Below, one piece after another: positions 21,039 to 63,787 of a stretch of 64,000 nt of DNA. Origin of the DNA: Corbicula japonica (taxonomy: Eukaryota > Mollusca > Bivalvia > Venerida > Cyrenidae); contig JAZAYU010000061.1 in NCBI GenBank assembly GCA_038501625.1, forward strand, positions 2,406,303 through 2,470,302, written 5' to 3'. Made by a program: the position numbers and the translations under genes. The notes below the pieces were generated by a model, which was not told where the DNA came from, ran no database searches, and worked only from the letters and a program-made list of their open reading frames with translations. Positions within the stretch are counted from its first letter, which is position 1; the number at the start of each line of letters is the position of its first letter.

Positions 21039-24000
21039 TTAACATCGTCTAAAACATCCTAGCCGTGTGAGGCATGCGCAGTCCTTCTGTTGCCAGCAAG
21101 AAGCACAATAAAGTGATAAAAGCATCGTGGTCACCCGGTTCATTTGATTTTGAAAGGAATCCATACCTGAAGAAATAATAAAAAACATTAGTAAAAACAT
21201 ATACTTGATTTCGTATGTGACAAATGGTAGGCTATCGAATTGCGTTATAATTTTAACTCAGTACTTTGCAGGATATTACAATAATGTAAGTGCCACATTG
21301 GAATACATTTTATTATGAGACTTATAAAATTCCGTCGTTCCGATTGACTGATAACCGATCACGTGTTCACGCGTAAATAGTGATATCAACCTTGAAATGT
21401 ATTGTTTTTGGATTATATTGATCAGTAATTGCACGTTTGGTTTGCTACTGTGATCTGCAGCATTGTGAATGGATATAAATGCTTTCACCTGTCAAATTCA
21501 CTTCTTTTTATATTTTGAGCTGTATGCTATTCACAATATATGCAAAATATAACATGTATTCAGAATATTGTTTGTAATAACAAGGTCTAATCGGTATTTA
21601 TAAAATAACTCAACTTTTTTAAGAAAAACAAACTTATTCAAAGTTTGTGCGCCACCCCACCCGGTAAGCATTTTTGCGTCCCCTTAACTGCTAGCGAATC
21701 ATATATTGCTGTAGGATCTACTCTTCTTATGGAAAACAGACGTGATGTAAGTTGTTGTATACAAACTTGAAAGAACATTTGTTTTATTTCTGGCTTACCA
21801 CTATCAAGTTTAAAACGCGCTATAAGGACCAACGAGGAATAATAAATTGTTTAATTTAATGCAGCATGTTAATATTGTATAGAAAAAGAAAAGACGTATC
21901 CCACATGTAATAGCTTGTCAATGAGCAATTATCCTTGACCTTTGGTGAAGCCATTAACTTACTATCGACTTCCATAACACCGTCGGATGATTGAAAGGGC
22001 AAATCCGGCAGCAGGGATTCCATGGGACTCTGAAACATACAGAACAAGAAATGGGACTGAAACATACAGAACAAGAAATGGGACTCTGAAACATACATGA
22101 CGAAAAATGGGACTCTGAAACATACATAATGAAAAATGGGACTCTGAAACATACAGAACAAGAAATGGGACTGAAACATACATAACGAAAAATGGGACTC
22201 TGACACATACAGAACAAGAAATGGGACTGAAACATACATAACGAAAAATGGGACTCTGAAATTTACAGAACAAGAAATGGGACTCTGAAACATACATAAC
22301 GAAAAATGGGACTCTGAAACATACAGAACAAGAAATGGTACTGAAACATACAGAACAAGAAATGGGACTCAGAAACATACATAACGAAAAATGGGACTCT
22401 GAAACATACATTACGAAAAATGGGACTCTGAAACATACAGAACAAGAAATGGGACTGTGAAACATACAGAACAAGAAATGGGACTCTGAAACATACATAA
22501 CGAGAAATGGGACTCTGAAACATACAGAAGAAGAAATGGGACTGTGAAACATACAGAACAAGAAATGGGACTGTGAAACATACATAACGAAAAATGGGAC
22601 TGTGAAACATACATAACGAGAAATGGGACTGTGAAACATACATAACGAGAAATGGGACTCTGAAACATACAGAACAAGAAATGGGACTCTGAAACATACA
22701 TAACGAGAAATGGGACTCTGAAACATACAGAACAAGAAATGGGACTCTGAAACATAAATAACGAGAAATGGGACTGTGAAACATACAGACCAAAAAATAG
22801 GACTCTGAAACATAAATAACGAGAAATGGGACTGTGAAACATACAGAACAAGAAATGGGGACTTTGAAACATACATAGCGAGAAATGGGACTCTGAAACA
22901 TACATAACAAGAAACGGGAACTACTCTGTTCTATAGGTACGGACTAACGAATATAGCACAAAAGAAATGATACGAGTATATTTAAAACATCCTGATTGAT
23001 GGGCATAACTGTCAATATTAACTCCTTAACAAAACTAGAATCTCATGTTAAGAACACAAGACATTAATATTTATGTCCAATCATAGATTTGAACTTGAAG
23101 TCATGGTTACAAAGATAGTTTATTATGTGCGCATTATACCATGAAATGTTAGTCTTCTGATTCATGAATGGATTGAATAATTACACTGCTTACATTTACC
23201 AAAATATGATTTGTTTTGTCTTAGATGAGGCATTTTTAAAGCTCGAATACACTAGTCAAAAGTTCTAAGTGCACACTTGATAAATGTTGATTTTTCAAAT
23301 TATTTGATTCAATCTTTCAAAATAGTGTAAATTACAATGAAGAAGAATCAATTATCTGTTAAAGCACACCAAAAAAATTATGTCTGCTTAACCAGATTAA
23401 AAAATAATAACATTTTAGCTCACTAATACTCAGAAAGCAATTCTCAAGTTAATTACCACTGCATCGGCCATCATTTTTGGTCGTTTTCTCATCTCTGTAT
23501 ATCTTAAATTTCATGCAGATTTAAAGGAAATACTGTAGTTTGCCATTCCATTGCACTAAAAAAGCTTCCTGTAGCTTTGTAATGGTCTGCTGGGCACGAT
23601 GAGCCAACGCACTCTTCTCTATTTTATCCATAACGTTTTTACAGGATTTCAAGGAGGAAATTACATTTTCTTAAACAATGTTTTGTGCCAAAAGTTTTTG
23701 AATTGTCTAGCAGTTTGGGATGATGCAATTCTCTATGATAAATGTGTAACAGCCTTTCCAAATGAAAAAATGTATTCATTTTGATGAAACTGACCAGTTT
23801 TCGGACACGCTTTTTGACCAAATGAACGTCATTTTCGAATCATCCGATTTTAAAGTTTATTGAATTTCTATAAATTTTAGTTTTAAATTTTTATTTATTG
23901 GACACTTATCCAACAAATGCTACACTAATATTTTCGAGTTTACGTTGTTTTACATAAATATTTAATGACGTAATTGAGTAACGTCAGCGTTCAACGTAAG

Positions 24001-25378
24001 CAACGTTATCAATCTAGAAAATAATATTGTTAAATTTTCTTCTTAAATTAATTAAATATGCAAAAATATGGTATTTCTTTTGCATTTACAAAAACCGTCA
24101 AAATTTTTTAGAACAAATTTGAAGTTGTGCCAGTGAAAATAATTTTGACGGCAATGTATTCGTCTGCTGACGTCAACCGTTCCATGGTTACAATTTGTTG
24201 GTGTGTTTTTCGTGTTTGTCTGGAGTCGGTGAACATGTGAAAAACAAAAACGATTGTGAAAAAATAATTTTTATTGCCGCACGGGGATTACGCATAAATA
24301 GCGTATGCCGACGTGGATGACGTAATACGTAAACCATGTGCACGGTTTTCAAAAAATATTATTGTTTGATCATAATTAACATTGTATCAAACTTTCATTC
24401 AATTAGAATAAGCTTACTTTGAGATATTCAAAATTGAAAAGTGTGCACTTAGAACTTTTGACCTGTGTATATTACTTGTTATTGTTGAACATAATTTAAG
24501 TGAAAAGTGGTGGATAAAATATTAAAAGCCTGTGACGGAAGTTTATCTATTATCTCCTATTTTCCAATAAATGTCCATATATCATTGTAACTAGTTCCCC
24601 TCAAAAAGGAATGCAACTACCAAAATGCTACCTCATATGGCTCTTTTTATATTAAATTCCTATTACAGTAAAGAAACTGGAAAAAAACCATTTCATTTAA
24701 TGACATTAACAGTTTTTCTCAAGCTAAAGAAATACTAAAATAAACTTTAAACAATAAACACATCATTTACTTAAGAAAGAACGACTTTTTTAAGAAATGC
24801 GGTAATTTGATACTACAGTACAGTAGAGCTGGATCTTCAGTTTGGAAGTGTCGAATTCAATCGTATCATTCTTAATTCTGTGTCCAACAATTGTGTTTCA
24901 CTAAGTTGAGGAATTTTTCTACAAAATGATGTCTGGTTTCTATGACAACGGAATCATAAGACTTCCTAAACTTTCTATTCTCATATGTGTTTATATCAGT
25001 ACTTTTTCCAATATCCCAACATTTAAGAATAACGTACATGATCCTTATATGCTCAGTGTTCTTAACTTAATGTCAAATGCTACACGAAATAAAGTAAAAA
25101 AAGAAACTCCGTTACATCTGGCTTTTTATATGGTTCACCTGTTCCTTCCTAACGTACTTGTCCATTTCTGGATATATTGGTTAATAATTTGAAAATTATT
25201 ATTTATAATTTATGAAACAGTATCAAAGAATGGTGATATATTGACAACTGACAAATGGCATGAGGCTTAGTTGGCATAGAGAATAACCGTTTCTAAAAAT
25301 AGCTTAAATACATACCGAATATCCAGCTGAACATAATTTTAAAATCAATAATAAAATTAATACACGCAAGAAGTCCAT
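21039..25378 (-). CDS. Secreted six-cysteine-tail protein, copy 1 (85 aa)
   Basis: Exons (minus): 25378-25316, signal peptide MDFLRVLILLLILKLCSA; 22029-21963; 21166-21039. Phases close at 258 nt with stop. The last exon ends LYCASCWQQKDCACLTRLG then CFRRC and stop: six cysteines spaced C-x2-C-x5-C-x-C-x5-C-x3-C, as in the copies at 35 and 52 kb. Exon 2 keeps MEVDSK-like sequence of its paralogues, but the best in-phase donor (A|GTAAGT, 21962) lies inside the ancestral exon; codons resembling the paralogues' downstream part (LMASPKVKD) now fall in the intron. A 29-bp minisatellite touches the acceptor of exon 2. Function unknown: a small secreted, disulfide-rich peptide, perhaps an antimicrobial, signalling or effector peptide. 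The use of this donor is inferred. Confidence 0.75.
22024..22920. repeat. 29-bp minisatellite, about 31 copies, made of a 3' splice site
   Basis: The unit is 29 bp, with occasional 27-bp units lacking 'ct'. On the minus strand each unit reads as pyrimidine-rich 'ttcttgttctgtatgtttcag' broken across the unit, then 'agtccc'. That is exactly the sequence around the exon-2 acceptor of the adjoining cysteine-tail gene (copy 1). Two variants alternate (agaacaagaaat and ataacgaaaaat, plus strand). The minus strand lacks stop codons in all three frames because 29 is not a multiple of 3, so long open frames here are an artefact. Confidence 0.95.
23250..24467. mobile_element. TA-flanked DNA transposon relic, about 1.2 kb
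   Basis: Terminal inverted repeats begin cac[ta/ag]gtcaaaagttc and include a perfect 24-bp core 'gtcaaaagttctaagtgcac...'. Both ends are flanked by TA, the target of Tc1/mariner-type transposases. Interior frames are short and show no DDE motif. Non-autonomous or decayed. It lies in intron 1 of cysteine-tail copy 1. Confidence 0.8.
24480..25310. other. Intron 1 sequence of cysteine-tail copy 1
   Basis: AT-rich. An 88-codon frame on the plus strand (24,926-25,192) has no recognisable features. Nothing else seen. Confidence 0.5.
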
Positions 25379-25379
25379 T

Positions 25380-26630
25380 TTAGTCATATGAAGTATGAAA
25401 ATACGAAACTCATGAAGACCTGTCACTCGAGTGAACAATATTTCAAGCTAATAAAAGACTGACACTTATTACGTTGGTGATATCATTTGCGTTTATAACT
25501 TCCTAATCACAACAAATATTACAGTCGGAGCGTTCAACGATGTCATCACAATTAACACATAGCGTTACATCATAGTTTATGATTTTATAAATTATAATTT
25601 AAAAATGATTTTTTTGTATACACTATGACAAGATTCTTCGTATGCACATGAGAGAAGAACACTACGGATCTGCTATCGCTTTCACTAAAACATCTCCTAG
25701 TGCAATTAAAGCAATGCATGTTAATTACATTATGATTTATGAATAATAAATATGCCATGTTAACATATGTATTGTGAAAGGTCATAGGCGACATAAAAAG
25801 GCTGTCACGACGTTTTTAATGTTAAAGAATTGGGTCAGTACGATCAATATTTAGAAACATATAATAAGGTATAGTAAGTTACCGATAACGTAACAGATAC
25901 GTGGCAGAAAAATTTTACTGAAATATCTTTCTTTTTTCAGTTAATACTTAAAAAAAATGAATAAATATTGTCATGTTTCTTTTGTGAGAATAACTCTATG
26001 AAAAATTTTTCTTATACGTTATAAGATCATAATTGAATTTTATTTACATGATTGGAATAAACTTTTAAAATTTTATCGGGTTTTCTATGTAATATATATG
26101 TTTCAAATTTGTATAGGTAACTTTTTAAAAATATGTGAACGTAAAAGTTACATTAAAAGAATAAAGTAAAACCTAAAAAAGAACCTGTGTGTTATAATTT
26201 ATGTGTTGTAATCCTGACATATTTACTGTCTGCGCAGTCTGCTGTGTCTCCTTCGTCCATTCTTCCATCCTGCTGTTGCTCAATTTACTCCTGATGACGA
26301 GGTCTCGGTAAGGCCGTCGAGCGCCTGCATATTTTGTACGCAATATGAGTTTATGAAGGTTAATGGGGTAATCTTGTAAAAGAACATAGAAGCTCGGGCT
26401 GTTTCTTTCATCCCTGTAATCGTGTTCTTTTTTTTTAATTTGAGTTGAATCACTAAACCCGTTTATTTATCCATTGTTATCATACAAAATACATATTTTT
26501 TATAAATAAATGTTCAACAATATATGACTAAATTTGTGTTACCTTATTTAAGGTAGAGCATCATATATATATAGGAGTAATCGTGTTTTTGCTGATTTGA
26601 CTCCAGGGGCCTCTGGTTTTCGGTAGGATC
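25380..26630. other. Upstream region of cysteine-tail copy 1
   Basis: Candidate promoter region for the gene starting at 25378 on the minus strand. No confident TATA or other element. An exon-like block with AG and GTAAGG edges (26,236-26,309, plus) has no family match and was not called. Confidence 0.4.
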
Positions 26631-26639
26631 ATCAGTCAG

Positions 26640-35060: not shown

Positions 35061-38000
35061 TTAACATCGTTGGAAGCAGCCTAGTCGTATCAAGCAGGCA
35101 CAGTCCCTCTGAGTCCAGCAATTTGTACAGAACATCGACGAAAGTACCGTGATTATCCTTGAGGTCTCTCTGGGATTGTTGAAGTCCACATCTAAAAAAT
35201 AGAATGGTCATAAAATATAAACATCTCATTTTCTTAAGTCTTTAAAAAGGACTATTTAAGAATACGTATCGTAAAATTATTTGAATACAAGGCAGTCGAA
35301 ACGACAGCAATATCCACCGCCGCATGCAGTAATGTTGGAAAGGTTATGTATGCTTAATTGCAAATTAACAAATATATCTCCAGCAGTTTGGAAGTTATGG
35401 AGCAAATATGAAAGACATGGTTAAATACGAACCTTCAAAGACAACTAGTGACATGAACTTCAGCCGGCCAGGTTGGAAAATGGGTTCTGCACATCATCTT
35501 GGTGGAATGAACGTTTGACTAAAGTTTGATAAAATTCATTGCAGGGGTTCAGAAGATATAAACCGGACACAAAATACATAGTTCAAATCTTCAATGACCT
35601 TCACTTGAGCCAGCCGGGTTGGAACATGGATTCTGCACATCTTGATGGGCTGAACATTTGATAAAAGTTTCATGATATTCATTCTAGGGGTTCAAAAGAT
35701 ATTAACCAGACACAAAATACATAGTTCAAATCTTCAAACATCACTGGTGACCGTGACCTTGAGCTGGCCTGAGGTGGGAACATGGGTTCTGCACATCGTC
35801 TTCATGGGCTGAGCATTTGACTAAAGTTTCATGAAATTCCTTCAAGGGGTTCAGAAGATATGAACCGGACATGAAGTACATGGTTGAAATCTTCAAACAC
35901 CACTGGTGACCTTGACTTTGAGCCAGCCATGTTGAAACGTGGGTTCTGCACATCGTCTTCATAGGCTGAGCATTTTCATGAAATTCCGCCAAGGGGTTCA
36001 GAAGATATGAACCGGACACGAAATACATGGTTCATATCATCAAACATACCAGCCCGGTTAGCTCAGTAGGTAGAGCGTCCGCTTCCGGACTGGGAGGTCG
36101 TGGATTCGATCCCCGGCCGGGTCATACCAAAGACTTTAAAAATGGTAGTAATGGCTTCCCTCCTTGGCGCTCAGGGTTTAAGGGTTAGCATTACGACCGA
36201 TTCGGCGGGTGTCGGTATAGGAGGACCCGCAAGGAGATCCGAAGTCGGACGTGCTGAGCCTGCAATATGGCCGTCTCCTATCTAAAAGCGCAGTACCACG
36301 CTTACACGCCGAAAAGGTGAACGCCAAAAAAAAAATCATCAAACACCACTGGTGACCTTGACCTTGAGCCGGCCAGGTTGGAACATGGGTTCTGCATGTC
36401 GTCTTCATGGGGAGATCATTTGACTAAAGTTTCATGAAATTCCTTCTAGGGGTTCAGAAGATATGAACCGGACACGAAATAAATGGTTCCAATCATCAAA
36501 CACCACTGGTGGTCTTGACCTTGAGCCAGCCAGGTTGGAACATGGGTTCTTCACGTCGTCTTGACGGGGAGAACATTTGAGTAAAGTTTCATGGAATTCC
36601 TTCTAAGGGTTGAAAGTTATGGACCGGACACGGAAGGACGGACAGACGGACGAAGACCATTCCTTTATAATTATTTGAAATTAACGGGTTACCAAAGAGT
36701 AAATAATGCCATATAGAAAGGCGTATATGGAATGACGAAATAGAATAAGTCAGAATCAGACCTATTCGAAGGAGCTGCTTAAACACTGCTCCACACACAT
36801 ATTTACAGGGTTCATCGCCATATGCAAACCATCGTTTGAGATGGATCAACATTTAAAGATAATATGGCGTGGCGTGAGAAGTGGCGTGGGCAGTAATATG
36901 CATTTCCATTACGGCTCATAAACAGGCATAACCAGCAGGGTTTATAATATTTTCATGTTTTATGGACCTTGAAAGCCCGTCGAGAACGGTTCTCATATTC
37001 GTGTAAATACTGAGTCGCACTCAACCCCAGGGTATGCGGCGAGGAACGTAATATGCATTTCCATTAGTGCCCATGAACAGGCTGAATCAAATCGAGTCTG
37101 CAGTATTTTTATTAATTTGTATGATTTGTCTTTATGTAAGGTGGCTTTGTAAGTTACTTTTTCATCTATTACAAAGTTTTATCAAGTTAAGAAAAAGTAA
37201 CACTTACTTTTATTATTCTTGACATATTCCTTGTTATACCAATCCCTGACTTCGGGTAAAGCCATCATTTTATTGTCAACTTTCATCATACCGCTCATCC
37301 TGTCCTTGAATGTTGTAAACTGAGTTTCCTCCAATGCTGGATCCACTGGCACCTGAAACAAACATTTTATCGTACTTTTAAGATGTTTTTTTTTTTAAAA
37401 GTGAAATATGCATATCAGGAATCACCACACTCACAAAACACAAGCCTCCCCATGCATCGAAAAAGAAGAGAGGGGAGAGAGAGCACGTTTGTTATAAGTA
37501 TGTCAATTCAAATAAGACGCCACAAACAATTAACGAAAAAAGAACGCTTGGGTTAAGACATAGCTCTTGAGTTCTTTTTCATTATGTAAGTCGATAACTC
37601 TTCATTGATGATTTTATTGAAAGTTCTTTAACTTTGTTAGAGATCAGTATCTTAAAAACCTAGCAACCACATGATTCAAGAACAGCAACCTACGCTTTGG
37701 AAAGGGATTACTAAAAATTGAAAAAAAAAAATTTTTTTCTGATAAAAAGGAAATTGATACATTCAAATATTTTCTTTTTTATCATGATATGTTATATATA
37801 GTATATAAACGTTATTTACTCCTCTGATTACTATGACACACTCTCTCCTTTTGATGGATCGAAATTGTACTGTTTTGTTAGTGTAAATATTTATTTGCGC
37901 TCAACCCGGGGCTAGGTGTGGTGGGCAGCTTCCATTTCTGAATATGAACAGGCTAGATTAAACCGAGCCTGCAATATTTTCATATTTGTCGTGTTCGGTG

Positions 38001-38401
38001 GCTTTCAAAGATCTCTTTTCATCTATCTCCGTGTTTATTAATTTATTTAATAGTAAGTTAATGCGGTACATGTAAAAATACAAAATTTGAAAAAAAAACA
38101 ACAGGATTACCATCTTTTTACAGAGGGATATAATCCTAATCTGTGACGGATATAATCGTAATCCGTGTAGGATAAAAGAGCGGTGGAGCAGAGGTTTTTG
38201 ACAGACCAGTCAGAGACGTCATCCTAGCTTCAACAAACAAGACTTAACCCTTTACTTCATCAGGTGTTAATTGAAGAATTAAAATGAAATATATGAAGTT
38301 CATACCTGATATTTATCAACGGCAAGTTGTTTCGATCGACGAACTGCTAAACAATTAGCTTTAATTAGAAATAAGAAGATAAATACACGTAAAATCTCCA
38401 T
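35061..38401 (-). CDS. Secreted six-cysteine-tail protein, copy 2 (123 aa)
   Basis: Exons (minus): 38401-38306 (signal peptide MEILRVFIFLFLIKANCLA), 37352-37208, 35191-35061; introns in phases 0 and 1, 372 nt with stop. Exon 2 has no cysteine and carries EETQFTTFKDRM, MKVDNK and LPEVRDWYNKEYV, shared with the 52 kb copy. The last exon reads IITVLSSMF then CTNCWTQRDCACLIRLGCFQ, RC, stop: six cysteines, C-x2-C-x5-C-x-C-x5-C-x3-C. The alternative frame of the last exon is also open, but comparison with the other copies places synonymous changes in this frame. AATAAA overlaps the stop region (plus tttatt, 35055-35060). Exon lengths 2 and 3 (145, 131 nt) equal those of the 52 kb copy, and introns share the same inserted repeats, so the two are a recent duplication. 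Family unknown to me. Confidence 0.82.
35420..36665. mobile_element. Pearl-like element: about 155-bp tandem units plus ACGG-type microsatellite
   Basis: About six units with 'ccactggtgaccttgacctt', 'cacatcgtcttcatgggctg', 'aaagtttcatgaaattcctt' and 'gttcagaagatatgaaccgg', ending in gacggacagacggacg at 36,637-36,652. Pearl elements of bivalves have this order: tandem core, short ACGG microsatellite, unique right end (known). It lies in intron 2 of cysteine-tail copy 2 and is split by a SINE. Confidence 0.8.
36047..36334 (+). mobile_element. tRNA-derived SINE with target-site duplication
   Basis: The tRNA-like head (36,053-36,125) has an A box (tagctcagtaggtagagcg) and a B box (gattcgatcccc) and can form an acceptor-like stem with gccgggt. 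A body of about 180 bp and an A-rich tail follow. The direct repeats 'atcatcaaaca' at 36,036-36,046 and 36,335-36,345 are a clean target-site duplication. The insertion sits inside a pearl-type satellite unit. Confidence 0.92.
37396..37545 (+). repeat. SINE-like dispersed repeat, 5' part
   Basis: 'gtgaaatatgcatatcagga' to 'acaattaacgaa', truncated. It lies in intron 1 of cysteine-tail copy 2 at the position where the 52 kb copy also has one. Confidence 0.7.
37900..38015. repeat. About 110-bp dispersed repeat ('aaccgagcctgcaatatttt')
   Basis: Core 'gcgctcaacccggggctagg' to 'gtgttcggtggcttt'. Other copies: 36,960-37,150, 53,575-53,700 and 54,145-54,255, with inverted pieces near 50,390 and 52,115. 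Two copies flank exon 2 in each of cysteine-tail copies 2 and 3. Confidence 0.75.
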
Positions 38402-39220
38402 TTTCGAGTTCTGTCTATACAACAACTGTATTCTCGTTTCACGACAAAGGTGTGCCACTTGTTTAAACATTAAAGTCTTACGTAAAACCACTTGCTAGTA
38501 GGATTAAACGAAAAATGTTGTTAACAAATGTCATCATTACAATTAAGACATACTGTTGCCCGTGGTTCTAAAATTAGATGACGAGTCCATTAATAATAAT
38601 TTGCAATATGTTGTCATTGTTTCTGTACAATAACAAGATAAATTAATTTATCATGCAACTGAATTATAATACGTAGCATTAAGAGCGATGACACGATACT
38701 TTTACTGTAATATCAGGTCACTGACTTTTAAGCCCGCCTACTTTGACGGCAAATGCTCACTCTTACTATCTTTTAAACTCACCCAGAAAAAAAGCACCAG
38801 TAAGTTAGGTGCTTATAATAATATTTGTCTGATCTTTTTGCAAATTACCACAAAGAAAAAGAAACCATTCGTACTGCGAGAGAGTCTATAAAGCTCCTCG
38901 AAATCAGGCCACAAGAAGACAATTCGGTGACTCAATTCCGTGAAAAAATCAATCAATGTATAGAATTTTAAACATATTTTATGAATAATTTTTGACTAAA
39001 ATTTGGTTTGCTTTTTATTACTTTGTGCTGACGGTGTACTAAATATGTTTACGCCTATGATGTCTACTTCAAGATATTTCGATTTTCGATCTCATCTCTT
39101 AAAAAAATAAAATTACTTTGTTGCTGGTGTCTTATTTCAACTGAATGAACATAGAATACGATAAATATACATGAAGACTGTTCTTCAGTTAAAGTAGCCT
39201 GCTGGAGAATGTAAGTGGTT
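38402..39220. other. Upstream region of cysteine-tail copy 2
   Basis: No further gene or named repeat. It holds the probable promoter of the gene starting at 38401 on the minus strand; no specific element identified. Confidence 0.4.
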
Positions 39221-44559: not shown

Positions 44560-45890
44560 CTCATAAAAAGGAAATTGATGAATGACCTGAGGTATTGATA
44601 AGCAAGGTTGACCTTCTTTCGGAACTATTGCAGAAATCCAGAGACAATATTACATGTCGAAAGTATGAAAACAGCTTTAATCGCTGGAGGAAATGGGCTT
44701 TTGGATTACAAGGTGGCATTACCGGCCGTTGTAAGACGACTGCGTCTGTAATATATGCATTGTATGGTGGCATCACCGGCTGTTGTAAGACGACTGCGTC
44801 TGTAAATAAATGCATTGTATGGAGGCATCACCGGCTGTTGTAAGACGACTGCGTCTGTAATATATGCATTGTATGGTGGCATCACCGGCTGTTGTAAGAC
44901 GACTGCGTCTGTAATATATGCATTGCATGGTGGCATCACCGGCTGTTGTAAGATAACTGCGTCTGTAATATATGCATTACAAGGTGTCATCACCGGCCGT
45001 TGTAAGACGACTGCGTCTGTATTATATGCATTGTACGGTGGCATCACCGGCTGTTGTAAGACGACTGCGTCTTTAATATATGCATTGTATGGTGGCATCA
45101 CCGGCTGTTGTAAGACGACTGCGTCTGTAATATATGCATTTTACGGTGGCATCACCGGTTGTTGTAAGACGACTGCGTCTGTAATATATGCATTGTATGG
45201 TGGCATCACCGGCTGTTGTAAGACGACTGCGTCTGTTGCATATGCATTATAAGGTGGCATCACCGGCCGTTGTAAGACGACTGCGTCTGTAATAAATTAA
45301 TTGTACGGTGGCATCACCGGCTGTTGTAAGACGACTGCGTCTGTAATATATGAATTCAAGGGTGGAATCAATCCAAATGGGCTTTTTGTAATGGTTTAGG
45401 AAGAGGGGATATTTTTGCAACATTATGAGGAAAACAATGCAAAAAATCAGCTAATAATCTATGCATGTTTGGTCGCTTTTGCAGGTTGTTTTTTATTAGT
45501 TCTGGGCTTCTAAATATTGTAATATTCGATATTATTTTTGACAAGGAGTGCATGGGTATTTTCATGGAAACTAGCTAAACCGATCAATAGAGAGACGGGG
45601 CATGAGTTGTTATAGCACGAACCTTTACACTATTGTGTCACGTTGCAAATGTTGAAATGTTAATACAATGGGCTTGATTAAAGGATAGTGATTATCTTTT
45701 CTGCGATTTGTCTAAAGTAAAGGCGGATTTGTCAGTAGAGCTTGTAGCAAAAAGATGTCTTATTCCAGCGCAGAACGGTATCAAAGACAAATTATATAAG
45801 AGACATTGGCGCTGGTTAAGTGATACCGCAAGGACGGTTATGTGAAGGGTTCGTTGAAGGAAAGACTTTGTTTCTAGCGCTATGTGTTTA
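44560..45890 (+). pseudogene. Tyrosine recombinase relic, split by a 54-bp array
   Basis: The amino part SELLQKSRDNITCRKYENSF followed by NRWRKWAFG (44,615-44,710) matches the start of Ngaro-type recombinases. The array then interrupts it, and the frame resumes at KWAFCNGLGRGDIFA (about 45,375). The far end has NGIKDKLYKRHWRWLSDTAR and then YVKGSLKERL (45,775-45,870), the region of the catalytic His/Trp box and final Tyr in this family. Several stops. Confidence 0.75.
44707..45362. repeat. 54-bp tandem array, second block, about 12 units
   Basis: Unit: gtggcatcaccggctgttgt, aagacgactgcgtctg, taatatatgcattgtatg. Being 18 codons long and stop-poor, it gives open frames on both strands. It is flanked by a direct repeat of recombinase codons ('aaatgggctttt' at 44,692 and 45,376). 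Confidence 0.95.
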
Positions 45891-45963: not shown

Positions 45964-47768
45964 TGTCGCCTGCGGTAGCAGGTAGACACATAGGGATCCT
46001 ATTGTCCGTCGACGTCGTCGTCGGCGTCGTCGGCGTCGTCCGGTAGTCCCCAAGCTTTAACATGAAACTTAATGTGGCCTATAACTTTAAAAGTACTTGT
46101 CCTATTCACTTCATACTTGGAATATATCATCAGCATGAACACAGCGATCCGTGACAACAAGAACGATAACTCCTCTTTCACTATTTTATGAGTTATGCCC
46201 CTTTCAAATGCAACTTTAACATGAAACTTAATGTGGCCTATAACTTCGAAAGTACTTGTCCTATTCACTTCATACTTGGAATATATCATCAGCATGAACA
46301 CAGAGATCTGTGACAACAAGAACCATAACTCCTCTATCACTATTTTATGAGTTATGCCCCTTTCAAATGCAACTTTAACATGAAACTTAATGTGGCCTAT
46401 AACTTTGAAAGTACTTGTCCTTTTCACTTCATACTTGGAATATATCATCAGCATAAACACAGCGATCCGTGACAACAAGAATGATAACTCCTCTGTCACT
46501 ATTTTATGAGTTATGCCCCTTTCAAATGCAAACTTTAACATGAAACCTAATGTGGCCTATTACTTTGAAAGTACTTGTCTTATTCCCTTTATACTTGGAA
46601 TATATCATTACCATAAACACAGCAATCCGTGACAACAAGAATGATAACTCCTCTGTCACTATTTTATGAGTAATGCCCCTTTCAAATGCAACTTTAACAT
46701 GAAACTTAATGTGGCCTATAACTTTGAAAGTATTTGTCCTATTTGCTTCATACTTGGAATATATCATCAGCATGAACACAGCGATCCATGACAACAAGAA
46801 CGATAACTCCTCTTTCATTATTTTATGAGTTATGCCCCTTTCAAATGCAACTTTAACATGAAACTTAATGTTGCTTATAACTTTGAAAGTACTTGTCCTA
46901 TTCACTTCATACTTGGAATATATCATCAGCATGAACAATGCCATCTGTGACGACAAGAACGATAACCCCAGTTTCAATATTTTTAAGTTATGCCCCTTTC
47001 CAATGCAACTTTAACTTGAGACTTAATGTTGCCTATAACTTTTAAAGTATTTGTCCTATTCACTTCATACTTGGAATATATCATCAACATGAACAATGCC
47101 ATCTGTGACGACAAGAATGATAACTCCAGTTTCAATATTTTTTAGTTATGCCCCTTTCAATGCAACTTTAACCTGAAACTCAATGTTGCCTATAACTTTG
47201 AAAGTACTTGTCCTATTCACATCATACTTGGAATATATTATCAGCATGAACAATGCCATCTGTGACGACAAGAATGATAACTCCAGTTTCAATATTTTTT
47301 GAGTTATGCCCCTTTCAAATGAAACTTTAACCTGAAACTTAATGTTGCCTATAACTTTGAAAGTACTTGTCCTTTTCACTTCATACTTGGAATATATCAT
47401 CAGCATGAACAATGCCATATGTGACGACAAGAATGATAACTCCAGTTTAAATATTTTTTGAGTTATGCCCCTTTGAAATGCAACTTAAACATTAAACTTA
47501 ATGTTGCCTGTAAAATAGAAATACTTGTTCAATTCACTTTATACTTTGAATAACTCATCTGCATTTACAAACCAATTTTTGAAGATGATAACTCAGGTTT
47601 CAGTTATTCCCCTTTTAAATGCAATTAAGATGACACATGTGTTCAGTGGTTTAGTATTGAAATCAACTTTAATAAAATATTTTTATTATATATGATTAAA
47701 CATAGGCCCACATTTCAACTTTTTCCATGCAGGCGACACATGTGTTCCGCGGAACACAACATTCTAGT
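45964..47768. mobile_element. Pearl-like satellite element nested in the retrotransposon
   Basis: The left end tgtcgcctgcggtagcagg is inverted at the right end (gcaggcgacacatgtgttcc). A gtcgtcgtcggcgtcgtc microsatellite (46,012-46,036) is followed by about ten ~160-bp units ('gtgacaacaagaatgataac', 'gagttatgcccctttcaaat', 'acttggaatatatcatcagc'). The same unit opens this window at 1-230. Confidence 0.88.
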
Positions 47769-52460: not shown

Positions 52461-52469
52461 TCCTCCTAT

Positions 52470-55328
52470 TTAACATTGTTGGAAGCAGCCTAGTCGTTTC
52501 AGACACGCACAGTCCCTCTGGTTCCAGCAATTTGTACAAAACATCGACGAAAGTACCGTGATTATCTGGCCCCTTTCTGCTGTATCGTTCAAGTCCACAC
52601 CTAAAAGAAAGCACAATCTCAATGACACACAAATGAATTCGCTTGCGGAGAGCAGAAAAGAGAAACATGTTTTATTTACGTCTGACCTACATCAGATATC
52701 TGAAACTTTCCTTTACACTTACCAGTTCACACAAGCATATTAATGTCTCCTTCTGTAACCTCTGTTTTTTGTAGAAACAAATATTTATTTTATGTTTTCC
52801 AGCGAATTATAGAGTTTTCTCAGTGAAATAAAAACGGTATTACACTGTTTTGAAACTGTGGAATAACATTTTTTTCACTGAATTTTCCGAACTATTTTTT
52901 TAGCTTGACCTCTCTTTGGTACGCCATTGATGGCACGATGTTTCTTTTGAAAATGATGTAAATTTAAATAAAATAAGATGTTGTTTTTCAGTTTCTTTCG
53001 ATTATAGTGATAGATAAGCCGTTTGAAAAACTTTATTCAGAACTATTTTCTATTGCTTCATCAGTTATGGTTGAAAGTTAAGCGGCTATTGTTTTTTCGG
53101 GCCCTCCACAGGGAACAAGAAACTCTGAGTTTCCAGTTTTTACTGATAATTTTGTAAAGAAAACGTCAAATAAAAATAATTTACACCGTCACAGTTCAAT
53201 ATATAGAGGATATTTGTTTGTTTCATTGAAATATTGATTTTATTTCACTTGTGAACACCAGAAACTGGACTAGCATTTTCACTCGTGGCTACGCAACTCG
53301 TGAAAATATCAGTTTCTGGAGTTCACTCGTGAAAAAATTGATATTTCACTGAAACAAACAAATATCCTCTATATATTGAACTGTGACGGTGTAAATTTCC
53401 ATTATGATTCCTCCCTGTAATAATTCGGGCAATCAATTTATACAACGAAGATAAAATCCTTTTGCAGCACATAAATGTATGATATTATTATCAGCAGTTT
53501 AATCCTGAAAATAGGTCGTAATTGCTTTTTGGCTCAGTGATTTTGCAACACAAATTATATTTGTGAAAATAGTGAGTTGCGCTTAACTCGAGGCTATTCA
53601 GAGGAGACTGTAATAAGCATTTTCAATACTGCTCATGAACATGCTCAATCAAACCAAGCCTGCATTTTTTGATATTTGAAGTCCTCAGTGGTTTTCGTAG
53701 TTACTGTTCTGTGTATTCCTGTATCACTACAAATTATAAAAAAAGTAACTTACGTTTTCCAGTAATGACATATTTCTTGTTGTACCACTCTTTGACTTCC
53801 GGCAAGTCCATAAACTTGCTGTCGACCTTCATGACATCGACCATCTGGTCCTTGAAGGATGTATACTGTGTTTCTGGCAGAACTGGAACCACTGGACGCT
53901 GTAACAAACATTATCATATCAGCATACATTAAACTATGTTATATGCTTGTTTTTTAAACTATGTTATTATGCTTGTTTTTTGTCTATTGTCTTAGGTCGG
54001 CCAAAAGCCGCTATTTGGTGGGGGTTAGGTATTTTGATGAAAACTTAGTTGGAAAACTGACATGAGATACATAAAATATTAGTTTAAATGTGTACAGTTG
54101 TTGACAACATTAAAAATCAGAACAGGGGTAACTAAAGTGTAAATATGGGCGGAACCCGGGGCTAGGCATGGACGGTAATATGCAGTCCCGTTACTGCCCA
54201 TGAACAGGCTCAACCAAACCGAGCCTACAATATTTTGATTGTTGTCGTGTTCGGTGACTTTAAAAAAGGTGAAATATGCATATCAGGAATTGCGACATTC
54301 AGAAAAACAGCATGCCCACACAGTCAAGAAGAAGAGAGAGGGAGAGAGCATGGTTAATAAAACGATCATTTTTAAAATTAGACACCACAAACAATTAACA
54401 AAACTGAGAACCCGAGGGGTTACCGCCTTGGAACGGTCAGTTGCAAATCAAATTGCCACTGGGGGGGGGGGGGGGGGGGGGGGTTAAACCAGGTTATATG
54501 GTGCACCAAAGGTGCCTTTTCCATGTAATTTTAAAAACCCGTGGAGAAATTGCATAAGCCTAGATCAGGGCCTCTCTTCTGTCCAAAGTTTATATGTTCA
54601 TACACAGTAAGTTTGCACTCGCACAGACTCTTAAAGCGGCATAGGAAATTGCCCCCAGCCCACATTAAGGCAATAACCGATTTTTTTCTTCAGAAACGTG
54701 CAGTTGCAATTTCTTGGTTTAAATAGAAAACAGTAAATTTTCTTTGTTTTGAAAGACAAAAAGAATATTTAACAGAAATACTTTCACAATGACCAGGAGA
54801 GTATTCTTGTTGTCATTTTGCTTTAATACGGTGTATATGTCAAACTAGTTCTTTTCAGCGCATATGGCCTGTAAAACATGTTGAGAATTGTTTTAGGCAG
54901 ACAATGACACTTAGAGCTAAACATGCAATTTGAAGATGATAAAAAAAACGTCAACGGGGCAGGGGATAGTTTACTAGTTAAGTCCTGATTGATGTTTTTA
55001 ATGTTTCGGATAACCCTGATTAAATCCATTAAACTAGTCTCGATAAAAAAAATTAACATTCTTTTTGAATATTGTTAAACTCTGAAAGAGGCCTCGGAAA
55101 CTTTCCTCTGCGCCATAACAACAATGGAGCAGAAAGCTTCGGTTCAAACTGGACTTGTACAAACAGGAAAACGGGAAAAAAGAATAACGGTTTCTAAACT
55201 AATTGACTAACTGTTTTAACACTCACCTTATATATATCTACTTCAGGGGCACGTTGAGGTGTTAAACGCACACCTGACGAGCTTATAATAATTGCCAACA
55301 AAATTATAAATTCACGTAAGAAGTCCAT
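52470..55328 (-). CDS. Secreted six-cysteine-tail protein, copy 3 (125 aa)
   Basis: Exons (minus): 55328-55227 (signal peptide MDFLREFIILLAIIISSSG), 53898-53754, 52600-52470; phases 0 and 1, 378 nt with stop. Exon 2: LPETQYTSFKDQM, MKVDSK, LPEVKEWYNKKYVITGK, then R across the junction. The resulting GKR is a possible prohormone-type cleavage/amidation site absent from copy 2. The last exon reads IITVLSSMF then CTNCWNQRDCACLKRLGCFQ, QC, stop. The six-cysteine pattern is identical to copies 1 and 2. Exons 2 and 3 match copy 2 in length exactly. Likely a small secreted disulfide-rich peptide; whether it is released from the exon-2 region by processing is inference. Function unknown. Confidence 0.82.
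53179..53397. mobile_element. Foldback MITE, near-complete palindrome
   Basis: 'aatttacaccgtcacagttc' and its inverse at the right, with 'aggatatttgtttgtttca' pairing inside. Intron 2 of cysteine-tail copy 3. Confidence 0.88.
54262..54530 (+). repeat. SINE-like dispersed repeat with a G homopolymer
   Basis: Family of 19.0 kb from 'ggtgaaatatgcatatcagg' to 'aaaccaggttat'. The usual 'actgggggtttaaacc' has expanded to a run of about 20 G at 54,462-54,483, a likely slippage or sequencing-sensitive site. Intron 1 of cysteine-tail copy 3. Confidence 0.75.
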
Positions 55329-55329
55329 T

Positions 55330-56260
55330 TTCACTTTTCTTAACTAAGGAAAAATACACTTTAAAATACACAGCGGACGAGTAGAAAAACATTTATAAGG
55401 TAATTTCTGATAATTAAGGTCTTACGTAAATATCAAAGTTAATATTAATTTCGTGAGAGGATGAAGCGGGACATGATATAAACAAGTACATACAGCGCAG
55501 TAAAGACACGAGTATCGTTGGCTGCGGTTTCTAAAGTTAGTTGATATGCCCATTAATAATTTGTCGAGAGTTTGTGTAAAGTACAGTGCTTAGATTTGTT
55601 GTTTTATTTAATGCGTCAGATGCAGACTTATTTATCTGTTCGTTTCAGACTTTTCTTGGGTAAGTCTGTTTATTTCTGTTTTTCACAAATATACCGACCG
55701 ATTGGTGCCATTGCACCACTTTTTTTCTGACAGAACTAACAGGTATAAGTTTCACTTTTTGGTAAATATAATACTCCATCGCCATTCGTTATTACTGGTA
55801 CATGCAAAAGCAGGCGAACAGATAAACAAGAAATATCTTTAAAAAAGATAAACGGCGTTGATGGAAAAGATTTATATATACATGTATATAAGAAAGAAAG
55901 AAATACAGAGAGGCAAAGCAGACACAGTTTAGTTATTTTATTTTATTTGTTATAGCTGTCGACGAACCCTCCCTGCTTTCTTAGTATGACTTAGAGATTA
56001 AGCGACCGAATCATGACAACTCATAAATTTATTGAAAGTGTCTTTCAAAAAAATGTTGAAGCTGTTGCAACAATTTCATACAGTGATAACAAGTCGATTA
56101 AAGATACTGAAGCAAAATATTCAGTTTCAATAAAATACCTCGTGTAGAGTGAGAATTCAAGATGAATAAATGTCCTTGAAATTTAATAAATATAAATAAT
56201 AACAGCCTGTTACAAGAGCGAAATCTACAAACTTTTACGTATATTAACTTTAAAAAAAGT
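55330..56260. other. Upstream region of cysteine-tail copy 3
   Basis: Probable promoter side of the gene starting at 55328 (minus). No named element or gene seen. Confidence 0.4.
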
Positions 56261-56263
56261 GTC

Positions 56264-57533: not shown

Positions 57534-57576
57534 GAGCACTCAAAATTTCATAAATGTAACTTATTTTTCATTATTG

Positions 57577-57705: not shown

Positions 57706-57739
57706 ACCAACATTTACTTTTCATGAAGGAGTTACCTGG

Positions 57740-58985
57740 AAGTTAAAAATTATCATAGCACTAACCACGTTACAATGAATTTGCTCTATATAAACTCAAC
57801 CGTACCTTTCAAAATTGTCCTACCACGTACATGGCAATTTCTTTGGTACTTTCAGGATGAAAATCTATACTAACTTTCTATATTCAGACACAGCATCTTG
57901 ATCCCGTAAACCAGCAGGCTGGGGGATGGGATGGGGGTGGGGGTGAGTCACACTGCAATACCACCTCAAACCAAATTATTCTGAACAACAGAAAAAGACC
58001 TACAAAATGGTTATACAATCATTATTTACTTTATAGACACGAAATCACCTTCTTCTTGTAAAACAGAAACCCACTAGAACCGTCACTTTCAACATCAGAA
58101 ACATTTGTAAACAAAGAACCATTAATTATAGGTCACATTCACGCGCCAAAACCAAGTCACAGGATCGCCAATATTCGTAAACAAAACACAAACTTCAATA
58201 TCTGACAAGAATAACTATCTGAACAATTTCTCTTGCTACATGTACACTCTTTCTATAACTGCTTACAACAATAAACTTTCAATTCGCATATATTTTAATT
58301 AAAAGAAAACACCAACTCATCGATCTACTTATATAATCTATATATATCTATACATAAATTTATTTATATACTCAATTATAAATAGCTTGATCTGGTAACA
58401 CAAAACTCATCGATCTCTTTTATAACCTGGCGCACATTCCCGATCAACCGTGATCTAGAAAACGAAACTATCTAGTAGATGTAGATAACAAAAACTTACC
58501 GCAAACAATCCTATATGACTATATCCACTCGCACTACCTAATCGTGTATACATGCTTTGCGTGCTGAATGCCATCATGAAAAACCAGACGGGTCAGATCA
58601 AAGTTATCACGAGAAATCACAACAATCAATTATCTGACTAAACCTACATGGAACTGCATCTTGGTCATGTAAATATTTTGTTTATATATAAACATAAAAC
58701 GTTTGCATACATAACCTGCGACATAATTTAACAATAAAAGTCCATATAATCAAGCAACATAAAAATACGTTGATATCTTCCCTCTTACTTATCGGATTTC
58801 CTTGGGTAATACCGTACCGTTGTACATACAACATGGTTCCCGATCAGTACTCAACGATCTATATATAAAGCCGGGCCACATGGTACTCAACATTCGCTAT
58901 AAACCTCTATTTAAAGCCGGGCCAATCGCCGGAATAGTTGTACGTTAATAAGGTCATCAAGTTATAGTTACATAGTAATAATATA
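57740..58985. other. Intergenic, no gene seen
   Basis: AT-rich with a small duplication of 'gccgggccacatggtactca' type sequence ('aaagccgggccaatcgccgg') at 58,870-58,935. No gene. Confidence 0.45.
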
Positions 58986-58994
58986 TTATCCAGA

Positions 58995-59400
58995 AAAATA
59001 AAATATGCATATCAGGAATGGCCACATTCAGAAGACACGGCTTCCCCACAAAGTAGCAGATAGTTTCGAGACTGTCCGGACTTGTAAGAAACCATTCCTC
59101 TTAAAGACTTCTCCACTAATTTCTCCGTTTGGCAACTTTAGATTTGCTAACAGAGGGAAAACTTATTTTCCCATATCACTTAAAATGCCTTTGGCCATAT
59201 CACATGAGAGGGAAGTTTTCGAGTAGTTGGTGCAAAATACACCGTGGTGAAGGTCCCACCCACCCCTTCCCACACGCAATCACACGCCAAGTGGTTAATA
59301 TACTTATATATGCTGACCATTCCGAGGTGGTAACCCCTCAGGTTCTGTTTTTTTTGGTGTCCTTTCAGAAATCGCTTGAGACGTATGATCTTTTCTTATC
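58995..59400 (+). repeat. SINE-like repeat, diverged
   Basis: Starts 'aaatatgcatatcaggaatg' and ends in 'gaggtggtaacccctcaggt'. Intervening sequence is only partly alignable. Plus-strand open frames here are not genes. Confidence 0.5.
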
Positions 59401-60170
59401 TCTGCTATCTCGCCTTTCTGGAGACGGTCGATTTTGCTAGGTGAAATTCATGACATATGCAGTTTCTTGTTTATTCGACATCATGTCATGAAGAATAAAC
59501 CACGTCAAACACAGAAACAAACCTTACAATATAACAAGTATAAACATTTCGGAATAAAAAAGGTGTAAATTTCTCCATCATCAGAACCACTTCTGTGCAA
59601 AACTATTGTTACTTTATATTAAAAAAGAAGGTTATACAACCGTATAACAGGGTTAAATTCCGTCGGGTTTCATATGGTTTCATATGGAGGGAAATAACAC
59701 GTAAAATGTTTAAATTTAAATTTGATTTATTTTGTTCAAATTGATAACATCAAATAACAGTAAAGCAATGTTCATATTTGTTTCCGGTATTCCTGTACAA
59801 GGTTTTCACTTGCAAATTTATGTCAAATATAAACTCTATTTCTAAAATGCCGTTAAGACAACTATAGGGGATATCTAAATCTTATCGGTAATAAAATTGT
59901 CAACCGCTTACAAAAATTATAGATGGTCAATTATAAAACTTAGTATCAAACTGAAATTAACAATCAACTTTAGAAACATGAAACACAAACATGTTTAAAT
60001 TTAAGTACAAAAACGTTCTAGAATACAACAGAAAATATCATTTGTGTTAGCTATTATTTTTCAGCATGGCAGCAACCGTCTGCCATAGTAGTGATGATAA
60101 TATTTTATTTGATCAATATGGTCATTGTTTTAAAGAATCGTTAATTATGAATTATTACACAGGCGTCAAA
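59401..60170. other. 3' flank of the fourth cysteine-tail gene
   Basis: AT-rich; nothing recognised. Confidence 0.4.
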
Positions 60171-60171
60171 T

Positions 60172-63100
60172 TTAAGCAACAGCCCCGAAGTCTGATTGCG
60201 AATTAGTGTTTAAGCACCATCTGGCGATGCATGTGATGTCCATTTGTTGCCGGCAAAGAGCACACATCATACTTCCGGCGACGCCTAATATTGCAACTTC
60301 ACTCGTGTCTCTTGTAGCCAAAGGTAAACCAATCCGCTCTGAAATCAAAGAAGAACCTACGATACATATGTGAAATAATTGATCATTGTAATTGGTGATA
60401 AAGGTTTTAAAACTGTCGTAAAATAGTTTTTGCCAATGGTGTATATAGCGTTTTACAAGTCAAATAATCAAGATATAGCTAACCGGTAACATTATACTGC
60501 GTAAAGGTTTCATGAACTATTTTTCAACAACAGTTACAGAATACTATTTTCCAGTTCACTTATGATATTTTTTTGGAAACATGAAACATTTATCGGTTAC
60601 CAATGCCATACAAGGAGTCCCCCGTTTATCAGCGTTATCTATGTAACCTTATCAAGGGGATGTCCCGGTCAGCGTATATGTTAGTGTGTTTGGATTAAGG
60701 TGGGTTGGTGCTGTTTTCGTAGCGTTTGGATTCATAGTCTGAGCCTATAATTATTGATAATATCAACCTCAAGCAACGATTTGATTGCACGAATCCCTGC
60801 CATCATGTGACGTAACGAATCACGTGATGATGATAAATATCATGTGACAATATTATTCCTATAAATATGACGTCGTAAATGCTTATTTATCATTTTTTTT
60901 ATTTTATGGCAATTACGACGTAATATCGCCGAACGCAGTTTTCGTGTCGCATGTTCCGACCGATTTTCAGTCGGTACAATTATCTAAGTTATCTGCAAAT
61001 TTACAACATGACAGGCCTAAATATAGCAATATTTCATTAATATTACTATTATTCTTGCTTCAGACACAAAAATTACTTACATTTTCCAGTTATAATCCAC
61101 GGTAATCCATTTTAATTTCCACCACAGTATTTTTGTATATGCGGTTCTCAGCCGTGTAGACATTGCTCGATTCTGATTGGCTCATGCAAATCATGCATCC
61201 GCCTCATGTTATACAGTACTAATTAGACGAATTACAAATAAATAGATGTTTTTAATAATATAAATCATACTTCCATATATAATCGGACAGAAATATATAT
61301 TTTCTTGATAATTAAAGTTAGCTTACAATAGTTTGATTGTTTTTCTTACTGTTTAAAGGACATAACCTGACTATTGAAAATATTATTTTCGTCTACGAAA
61401 TTTTTACGCAACTGTCAATCAGGAATATGTCAAGTGAAAGTTCTGCATACACAGTACTTGAATATAATTTCTTACCGGATTTAATTCATGTTTACCGATG
61501 ATTTGATGCTTAAAGGTGAATTTTGTTATATATTTTCAGTGCCTAATCATTTAAAGCTGAGATTATGACTTTCTGTAAACTTTTTGTTAAAACTAAATAT
61601 GCGACACGTTTTTGATGCATCGCGTTTAGAGGTAACGCTTGCCAATAAATGAAAAATATAAAATGTCAAAATATTAAATGTTAAAGGTTAGAGAAGCATG
61701 CGTTCCTCTAGATATTTGGAGTAGTGACAATATCAAAGAATGATATATTTTTAACGTTTTCCGATGAACATTGTTTTTATTTGACAGATGTATTTGTTAA
61801 TGAATACTAGCTGAAGCCAGTGGCACGTTATCACTAAAATATTTATTAGTTAGATTAATAATTTAAAAAGTAAAAAAAAAATCTGTAAAAATGTCCGTGG
61901 TTGCAGTGGATACTACTGCGAGGGGAAGTATATACCGCTGATAGAAGTTTTGATCATATTGTGTGAGTTATGTAGTGCTCCAAGTTTACCCAGAGCTATA
62001 TTAACAAACGAGTTACCAGCTCGAGCTTCTGTATTAAGGGCTTGCCACACTCCTCCTAATCCTGTTCATCGATAAAAAGAAAATTATCAAAATCTCAATA
62101 ATGGCAAAATTCCGTTCAATTAAACTTTGCACAAATGAATGTTACTAATGTATCTTGATTTTGCATACAGTAAGACACGTTAGAATAGTAAAGAAAACAA
62201 GCTAGACCTTAAAATTCCTTTAAATTCTATTAACATAAATTCGCAAAAACTAAGCGATACAAAACATAATTTTAAATTCCCACGTGAGTGCAATGTTACT
62301 GACAAGAAAATGTTGTGTACATTGTAAAAAAACTTTCAACTACTAAAAGAGAAATCAGTGATTGTCATCCGTTTACGCGACCAGGAAGCGACCAGAAAAT
62401 TGAAGGTCAAACACACTTTTTCTAATATCTCGTAAAGTTTAGATATGCAAGTCACATGGACACAATAAATTGTTGTCACTATCATATTACTCATGTTGGC
62501 ATTTAAAATGAGGTTTTGTGTTGTTTAGTTTTTGTGAATTTATGTAAATAGAAGTTGAGGGAATTTTTAGATCTCGCTATTTTTCTTTACTGTTCTAACG
62601 CATCTTACCATATGCAAAATAAAGATACAATAATAACATACATTGGTGCAAAGTTTCATTTAACGGCATTTTGCCGTTATTGAGATTTTGATAATTTCCT
62701 TTTTATCGATGAATAGAATTGGAAGGAGTGAGGTTATCCCTTAAAGGCATGTTATTAACTTATTTAAAAAAAAACGAAGAAAATAACTAACTAAAACAAA
62801 AAACATACATGTACTTGGCATCGAGGCAGCGATTATAAATATCTACTAGTAGACATTTAAGAACAACATGTCCATTAAGTAAAGTTCCGTTAAAACTGAA
62901 ACGCTTAATTAGTTTTAGGAACAAGAAATTATACCTTTCAGAGGATCATTTGCGGCGGCGTGATTGTCTACTGGGCGCCCTAGAGATGTTACATAATCTT
63001 CTATAATTGTTGATACTTTCTTCGCGTTTTTGGGCAATCCTGGCGCAATCAGAACCGCCGAACTGAGACTGTCCCGAGCAGTTTTACTGTCAAAAGTATT

Positions 63101-63787
63101 TGTCTGAACAAGAGATATCTGTGTCGTTGTTTCGGTTACGCTGTTAACATTCACCGAATTATTTTCATTTTTATTTTCAGTAATGACAAGAGACAATCCA
63201 GTTTGCATAGTAGAGAGACGGTCCTGATTAATTCTATCATCAAAAACGTTCGATGCCGGCAAAGTTGTTTTTAAAGTTTCCTCAACTATTGTTTTATCAT
63301 AACTTCCATTTATCATAATCGTGTTAGTTTTTATCAGCATTTCAAGTCGACTTTCATTACTCCAAATGCTATTTGTCTTAGGCGAAGAGAGTGTCGTGTG
63401 GTTTGAAAGATCGTCAACGGAGATCGTCGATATCGAATCAAACATTTTTGCGGGTTTGACTTCAGGTTCTACAATAGATATATCCGAGTTCTTTCTCCCA
63501 ATCAGGGCGGCTATACAAGCTGTTCGTATAGTGACATTCTTGATAGAACACGTTGCTAATATTTCTTCCATTGTGTAAGTTATATTGTCGGTTGAATTTC
63601 TCGCCAATGAATTTGTTGTTTTGAACACATCTATGTGATCTGAAGCTTCCTGCAATGGCGAAGGCTTCTCCTCCAAACTCTTAGCTAGATATCCACATAT
63701 CACGCAATAAAAATGGAAAACGATCAACGGCTTGTTAACAATATCCATTATTCTCACAAATGCATTTGTGTAGCAGTTGAAACGCAT
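60172..63787 (-). CDS. Long secreted protein with four-cysteine tail, fourth family member (339 aa)
   Basis: Exons (minus): 63787-62935 and 60338-60172. The phase 1 junction (AAAG|GTATAA ... TTTCAG|AG) closes at 1020 nt with stop. A second ATG at codon 14 (63748) begins a better signal peptide (MDIVNKPLIVFHFYCVICGY). The body is Ser/Thr/Asn-rich with about seven N-glycosylation sequons and one cysteine pair (ATCSIKNVTIRTAC), suggesting an extended glycosylated segment. The last exon codes GSMMCALCRQQMDITCIARW then C and 11 more residues. Aligned to copies 1-3 (SMFCTNCWTQRDCACLIRLGC) it keeps cysteines 1, 2, 4 and 5, the Q and the D, but lacks 3 and 6. The splice phase is the same. Homology rests on this short match, so an additional exon or chance similarity remains possible. 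Confidence 0.65.
60345..62030. other. Intron of the fourth cysteine-tail gene
   Basis: No further exon recognised. 60,790-60,850 has several 'cgtgatga/catgtgac' inverted motifs; otherwise AT-rich. Confidence 0.4.
62034..62744. mobile_element. TTAA-flanked foldback MITE, copy 3
   Basis: ttaagggcttgccacactcc at the left, inverse at the right (ggagtgaggttatcccttaa), self-complementary across its 710 bp. Lies in the intron of the fourth cysteine-tail gene. Closest to the copy at 15.1 kb in its ends. Confidence 0.85.

Follow-up and report, generated by a model that had tools for sequence, protein, structure and literature searches.

What kind of protein ends in six regularly spaced cysteines at its extreme C-terminus, and to what family does it belong? 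The question is raised by a stretch of 64,000 nucleotides from the clam Corbicula japonica (the window; contig JAZAYU010000061.1, in our numbering C61:2406303-2470302), which holds a cluster of minus-strand genes. Three of them, copies 1-3, share the tail C-x2-C-x5-C-x-C-x5-C-x3-C, and a fourth, gene 4, carries a related module with four cysteines. The best reading of the evidence is that these genes probably belong to a secreted bivalve family built around a disulfide-stapled helical hairpin, whose function we infer to be that of a ligand or effector released from the cell. The family is new but of a general type already known, that of small secreted disulfide proteins; what the finding adds, as judged from sequence, is a single module common to genes of several architectures.

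Rebuilt exon by exon, each of copies 1-3 has three exons, of which the first encodes a signal-like N-terminus and the last the six-cysteine tail; signal peptides in all genes were called by eye, with no predictor. Copy 1 comprises exon 1 at 25316..25378 (signal-like MDFLRVLILLLILKLCSAGYS, donor GTATGT), exon 2 at 21963..22029, and exon 3 at 21039..21166, which encodes CASCWQQKDCACLTRLGCFRRC. The exons of copy 2 lie at 38306..38401, 37208..37352, and 35061..35191 (tail CTNCWTQRDCACLIRLGCFQRC), and those of copy 3 at 55227..55328, 53754..53898, and 52470..52600 (tail CTNCWNQRDCACLKRLGCFQQC), all on the minus strand. An earlier note on this DNA had proposed three such genes, and the rebuilt models agree with it: all spliced frames are open, the introns have GT donors and AG acceptors throughout, and the pattern stands at the extreme C-terminus in 3/3 copies, with the stop codon immediately past the last cysteine. 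Intron phases are identical in the three copies (phase 0 at the end of exon 1, phase 1 at the end of exon 2), so that each tail is entered at a phase-1 acceptor.

Copy 1 is the least certain gene, because its exon 2 is shortened and ends at a donor (GTAAGT) within a stretch that copies 2 and 3 use as coding sequence. A 29-bp minisatellite of ~31 copies (window 22022-22919) lies at the acceptor of this exon. On the minus strand its repeat unit holds the acceptor together with the first 8 bases of the exon (TATGTTTCAG/AGTCCCAT), and therefore the splice acceptor itself has been amplified.

Good evidence from substitution patterns indicates that the cysteine frame of the last exon is coding, because constraint is found there, unlike in the other two frames. 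Pairwise Nei-Gojobori estimates of nonsynonymous (dN) and synonymous (dS) divergence over the last 35 codons give dN 0.339 and dS 2.362 for copies 1 and 2 (a dS of ~2.4 is near saturation and based on ~23 sites), 0.329 and 1.122 for copies 1 and 3, and 0.104 and 0.487 for copies 2 and 3. The ratio dN/dS is thus 0.14-0.29 in the cysteine frame against 0.98-2.1 in the other two, where stop-containing codons were skipped, dN is 0.169-0.516, and dS is 0.106-0.430; of the six comparisons in these frames, five have dN above dS and the sixth has nearly equal values (0.169 vs 0.173). Purifying selection on the cysteine frame had been claimed from a count of codons in copies 1 and 2, and both the claim, with ratios not near 1, and the count hold: 13 of the last 22 codons differ, seven of them synonymously. 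The corresponding numbers are 15 and eight for copies 1 and 3, and six and three for copies 2 and 3. Exon 3 of copies 2 and 3 is also open in another frame, which was rejected, as the substitutions fit the cysteine frame alone. Upstream of the tail, exon 2 of copies 2 and 3 has dN 0.27 and dS 1.29 (own frame only), and the signal exon, over its first 19 codons, has dN 0.489 and dS 1.068 for copies 1 and 2, and 0.439 and 1.738 for copies 2 and 3, dS being not computable for copies 1 and 3. All of these values are pairwise and are no demonstration of constraint on the branch of copy 1 itself.

Gene 4 is built differently. Its first exon (62935..63748) encodes a signal-like peptide unlike that of copies 1-3 and then a long Ser/Thr/Asn-rich stretch, and its protein has seven N-glycosylation sequons. 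A second exon (61936..62061) is followed by a last exon (60172..60338, all minus strand) that is identified by its phase-1 acceptor, by profile, and by genome search. This exon encodes the four-cysteine module CALCRQQMDITCIARWC (C-x2-C-x7-C-x4-C) and then LNTNSQSDFGAVA, residues that continue past the four-cysteine core. The view of gene 4 as a relative of copies 1-3 therefore stands in part: the four-cysteine core is common to them, and the six-cysteine tail and common signal exon are lacking. This x4 form of the core occurs once in the six-frame translation of the window and its flanks (345,036 residues), necessarily in gene 4.

The four-cysteine module extends well beyond the window. Searches of the 1.07-Gb assembly (1630 contigs) score the best candidates only, so that all locus counts are lower bounds. 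With the copy-3 tail as query, the four candidates scored are copies 1-3 and one place on contig C17 (E 2.62). With the gene 4 tail, all eight scored candidates belong to the group: gene 4 itself, four places on C96, and C17, C75, and C107 (E 0.012-0.21; C17 at E 0.021). A fifth C96 place appears with a C96 query, and a C107 query recovers C17, C96, and gene 4 at E 0.11-0.25. Three weaker matches of the C107 query (two on C69, one on C26; E 1.0-4.7) were dropped for their B-box-like appearance by eye; we take them to be B-box/TRIM-type zinc-finger proteins. Four of the C96 places form two pairs 127-128 kb apart (753180/880599 and 758796/887250; L033/L034 and L030/L031), reflecting either a segmental duplication or an unpurged second haplotype. 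Because module frames are identical within pairs, each pair was counted as one gene, which brings the C96 cluster to three. The result is at least six distinct genes beyond the window (C17, C75, C107, and C96a-c, on contigs C17, C75, C96, and C107), and hence a four-cysteine module in at least seven genes other than copies 1-3, on five contigs including that of the window. The six-cysteine spacing, which the earlier note had treated as the unit of the family, gives way to this module. No further copy was recognised by the tail profile in the 100 kb on each side of the window (500 bases read N), and none was recognised in 40 kb of contig C17 apart from the gene already found there (500 bases read N).

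Eleven modules from ten distinct genes were aligned: copies 1-3, gene 4, C17, C96a, C96b, C96c, C75, and C107, which has two (C107a and C107b); the duplicate C96 places were kept out of the profiles. A core of C-x2-C-x7-C-x4/5-C is present in 11/11, partly by construction, as C107a was picked by its spacing. This last module (CRKCMIAGNWECVAMVC, L036 929-1174) lies upstream of the main C107 module, has the right spacing and no profile support, and finds itself only when used as a genome query; it is possibly a module of the family.

Homology of the module across the ten genes is supported by several lines of sequence evidence. In leave-one-out profiles, from which each member and its close kin were removed and in which E was scaled roughly to the genome, gene 4 is found at E 9e-8, C17 at 1.7e-7, C96a at 2.2e-5, C107b at 1.3e-4, C96b at 2.8e-4, C96c at 1.4e-3, and C75 at 3.2e-3. 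When gene 4 is added to a profile of copies 1-3, C17 is recovered at E 3.7e-4. A phase-1 acceptor is the only or best candidate before the module in 8 of 11 cases (copies 1-3, gene 4, C17, C96a, C96c, and C107b); the intron is ambiguous for C75 and C107a, and C96b has no candidate. The link between copies 1-3 and the four-cysteine group was examined with the profile of copies 1-3 and 2000 shuffles in which cysteines were fixed and the remaining residues shuffled. The seven four-cysteine members sum to 86.6 bits, against at most 30.6 bits in the shuffles, and 65.4 bits remain when C17, which the copy-3 query itself had found, is removed. The real score is reached by none of the 2000 shuffles for C17 and gene 4, by 2 for C96b, 6 for C96a, 15 for C75, and 34 for C96c; for a second B-box-like control it is reached by 547. 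Copies 1-3 are joined to the group because of these cysteine-fixed shuffles, the common phase-1 exon, and the common cluster. Because the four-cysteine core recurs in further genes of the same genome, the six-cysteine tail looks like a local derivative of the wider module, with two extra cysteines and an inserted Gly.

AlphaFold2 models of the copy-3 exon place helices at residues 4-26 and 30-36 with 5 sequences (mean predicted local distance difference test score, pLDDT, 74.6) and at 5-27 and 30-36 with 11 sequences (mean pLDDT 71.7), and predict with moderate confidence that the module folds as a helix-turn-helix, or helical hairpin. In the proposed scheme the family is built on one small exon encoding C-x2-C-x7-C-x4-C in ~20 residues, with a hydrophobic stretch ahead of it and, in most cases, a phase-1 intron at its entry. 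The protein would be exported, as the signal-like N-termini suggest, and its four cysteines (six in copies 1-3) would pair as disulfides that staple the two helices together. The stapled hairpin may then serve as a small extracellular ligand or effector, and the remainder would be a changeable carrier: a short spacer in copies 1-3, and a long low-complexity region in gene 4 and C17. Copies 1-3 would have arisen by tandem duplication after the two extra cysteines were gained. Because the module end is conserved and the carrier changes, the binding end of a secreted ligand or effector would fit better than an enzyme.

Comparison with known families places none of these proteins in one, as the earlier note had held. 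Pfam scans (batches of 4, 3, and 5 proteins plus the 11 modules) and an NCBIfam scan (3 proteins) give no match at curated cut-offs. Scores below the Pfam cut-off, in bits over cut-off, are 15.7/27 for TMEM95 (copy 3), 11.7/27 for Aldose_epim, 15.3/22.4 for Prok-RING_2, and, for exon 1 of gene 4, 18.7/25.6 for DNA_pol_D_N with two weaker ones. PDB sequence searches return nothing convincing (best E 0.64 and 0.46). In the protein database, an alignment of copies 1-3 finds nothing at E<=1 among 66 candidates and the C17 protein nothing at E<=10 among 8000 candidates scored. A control search with a transporter gene of the window showed that this database includes proteins of Mercenaria, Ruditapes, Mya, and Mactra; as it covers clams yet yields no relative, either the family is narrow or its short multi-exon genes are unannotated. 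Literature searches with the six-cysteine spacing found nothing, although sequences printed purely as letters would escape them. Among the matches listed for the four-cysteine spacing, most are plant SRS transcription factors, other plant proteins, iron-sulfur proteins, and metal proteins; in excerpts of the leech antimicrobial and spider venom papers that also matched, the patterns are longer and different.

Several families resemble the module in part. Scorpion kappa-KTx helix-hairpin peptides consist of two short helices stapled by paired cysteines and are similar in size, with a different spacing; no chain of this type is among the PDB sequence matches. Bivalve big defensins, mytilins, and myticins are secreted, cysteine-rich, and multigenic, and their cysteine spacing differs from that of the clam module. 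PXRX peptides of conchiferan molluscs have four conserved cysteines and mollusc-specific precursors, as far as an excerpt describes them, with a P[FM]R[WY] motif that has exceptions in Dreissena (PMC6425005). This motif is present in 0/4 spliced window proteins and 0/7 fetched frames. Leech theromacins, as excerpted, are likewise cysteine-rich, with the pattern C-X3-C-X2-C-X7-C-X7-C-X9-C-X-C-X10,13-C (PMC12295236). The printed pattern includes C-X2-C-X7-C, but it has eight cysteines, and X7 where the clam module has x4 or x5.

The sub-threshold TMEM95 match points to the IZUMO-SPACA6-TMEM95 (IST) superfamily. The excerpt consulted defines IST proteins by a four-helix bundle of distorted form and by two CXXC motifs, one on the N-terminal helix and one in the hinge, which are linked through two disulfides (PMC9482655). 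The likeness lies in an extracellular, helical, cysteine-rich segment after a helix, and the TMEM95 hinge (PDB 7ux0) has the spacing C-x2-C-x6-C-x5-C. Copy 3 matches Pfam TMEM95 at E 0.012, and BLASTP against the solved TMEM95 chain gives 22.7 bits (E 7e-4, a single-pair E). Copies 1 and 2, the gene 4 tail, and the tail exon alone have no Pfam TMEM95 match. Unlike IST proteins, copies 1-3 contain one CXXC apiece. In gene 4 there are two, the first of which, at residue 15, lies in the presumed signal peptide. Membership in IST was rejected on the missing second CXXC of copies 1-3 and the missing TMEM95 match of copies 1 and 2.

A number of results weigh against a single family of stapled hairpins. 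Against the profile of the four-cysteine group, copies 1-3 score just 10.4-13.8 bits (genome-scaled E 58-670), near the 10.1 bits of an unrelated B-box-like control, and the profile of copies 1-3 gives gene 4 an E of 92 and C17 an E of 2.5. C107a fails its leave-one-out profile (1.7 bits), and C107b is reached by 97 of the 2000 shuffles, which is barely an improvement on the 113 of the B-box control. The subfamilies have no match to one another outside the module: in five comparisons, 117-874 of 1000 shuffles attain the real score. The one exception is a weak likeness between the N-terminus of gene 4 and that of C96b, attained by 5 of 1000. More sequences brought no gain in AlphaFold2 confidence, and the protein-database queries of copies 1-3 and C17 yielded no relative in another species.

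Within the preferred reading of a secreted ligand or effector, host-defence and reproductive roles would rank ahead of enzymatic or structural ones, and gamete interaction and immunity appear about equally likely. The first possibility, a tentative one, is that these are reproductive proteins of a broadcast spawner: secreted ligands of gametes or gonad that evolve fast by tandem duplication and leave no recognisable relatives. The tandem cluster, the lack of detectable likeness outside the module between copies 2 and 3 and the other genes compared, and the absence of a relative of copies 1-3 from a database that includes proteins of other clams all agree with this, as does the TMEM95 lead, given that TMEM95 is a sperm-egg fusion protein. 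However, dN/dS is well below 1 rather than above, and the TMEM95 lead is confined to copy 3 and meets a single CXXC in copies 1-3.

Immune effectors, that is, disulfide-stapled peptides released to bind or damage microbes, are an equally tentative alternative. Apparent secretion, richness in cysteine, and tandem duplication suit such a role, and the six-cysteine tails have a net charge of +2 to +3. Strong positive charge is not a feature of the presumed mature proteins (-2, +5, and +3, with cleavage sites assumed), Pfam scans of the members gave no antimicrobial family, and the relatives with long low-complexity regions are unlike antimicrobial precursors.

Somewhat less likely is a more general proposal, in which an undescribed mobile extracellular module, a four-cysteine helical hairpin on a phase-1 exon, would have spread by exon shuffling and tandem duplication among rapidly changing secreted proteins of venerid-like clams. 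There it would form the recognition end of ligands for self/non-self or gamete compatibility.

Release of the cysteine tail as a hormone from a peptide prohormone seems improbable. The signal-like N-terminus, small size, and C-terminal position of the tail are what a prohormone would have, and copy 3 has a GKR dibasic site across its exon 2/3 junction. A classical prohormone is nonetheless less likely, because copies 1 and 2 lack this cleavage site and because the C17 protein continues for a long stretch past its internal module.

That the open frames are chance or decayed pseudogenes, as the missing part of exon 2 in copy 1 and the minisatellite at its acceptor might suggest, is very improbable in view of the constraint specific to one frame of the last exon, a low dN/dS for exon 2, three consistent gene models, and related intact open frames elsewhere in the genome.

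Other features of the window include TTACGTAA, which occurs three times, twice in 5' flanks of the cluster: at 38478..38485 in that of copy 2 and at 55422..55429 in that of copy 3 (no strand assigned). At 38478 and 55422, TTTACGTAAGAC is common to the 5' flanks of copies 2 and 3, ~77 and 94 bases upstream of the ATG. The control transporter is an intact, uninterrupted gene for a 619-residue sodium/solute symporter of the SLC5 type (window 16944-18803). Its best named relatives are from Mercenaria and Ruditapes (top named rows 60-73% identity), including a Ruditapes protein 73% identical over 83% of the length; three other records are 69-71% identical. These relatives point to a bivalve near Veneridae as the probable source of the DNA. 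An open frame at window 4771-5220 looks like a fragment of a pogo/Tigger-type transposase, judging by eye. Large tandem arrays with long open frames are found at 46055-47564 (159 bp x 9.5) and 44712-45370 (54 bp x 12.2).

Short multi-exon genes of this type are easily overlooked by annotation. Lineage-specific secreted cysteine families are a source of many immune, mucosal, and reproductive novelties of bivalves. With the module defined, the genes modelled, and the loci listed, the family can be sought in other clams and tested against expression and peptide data.

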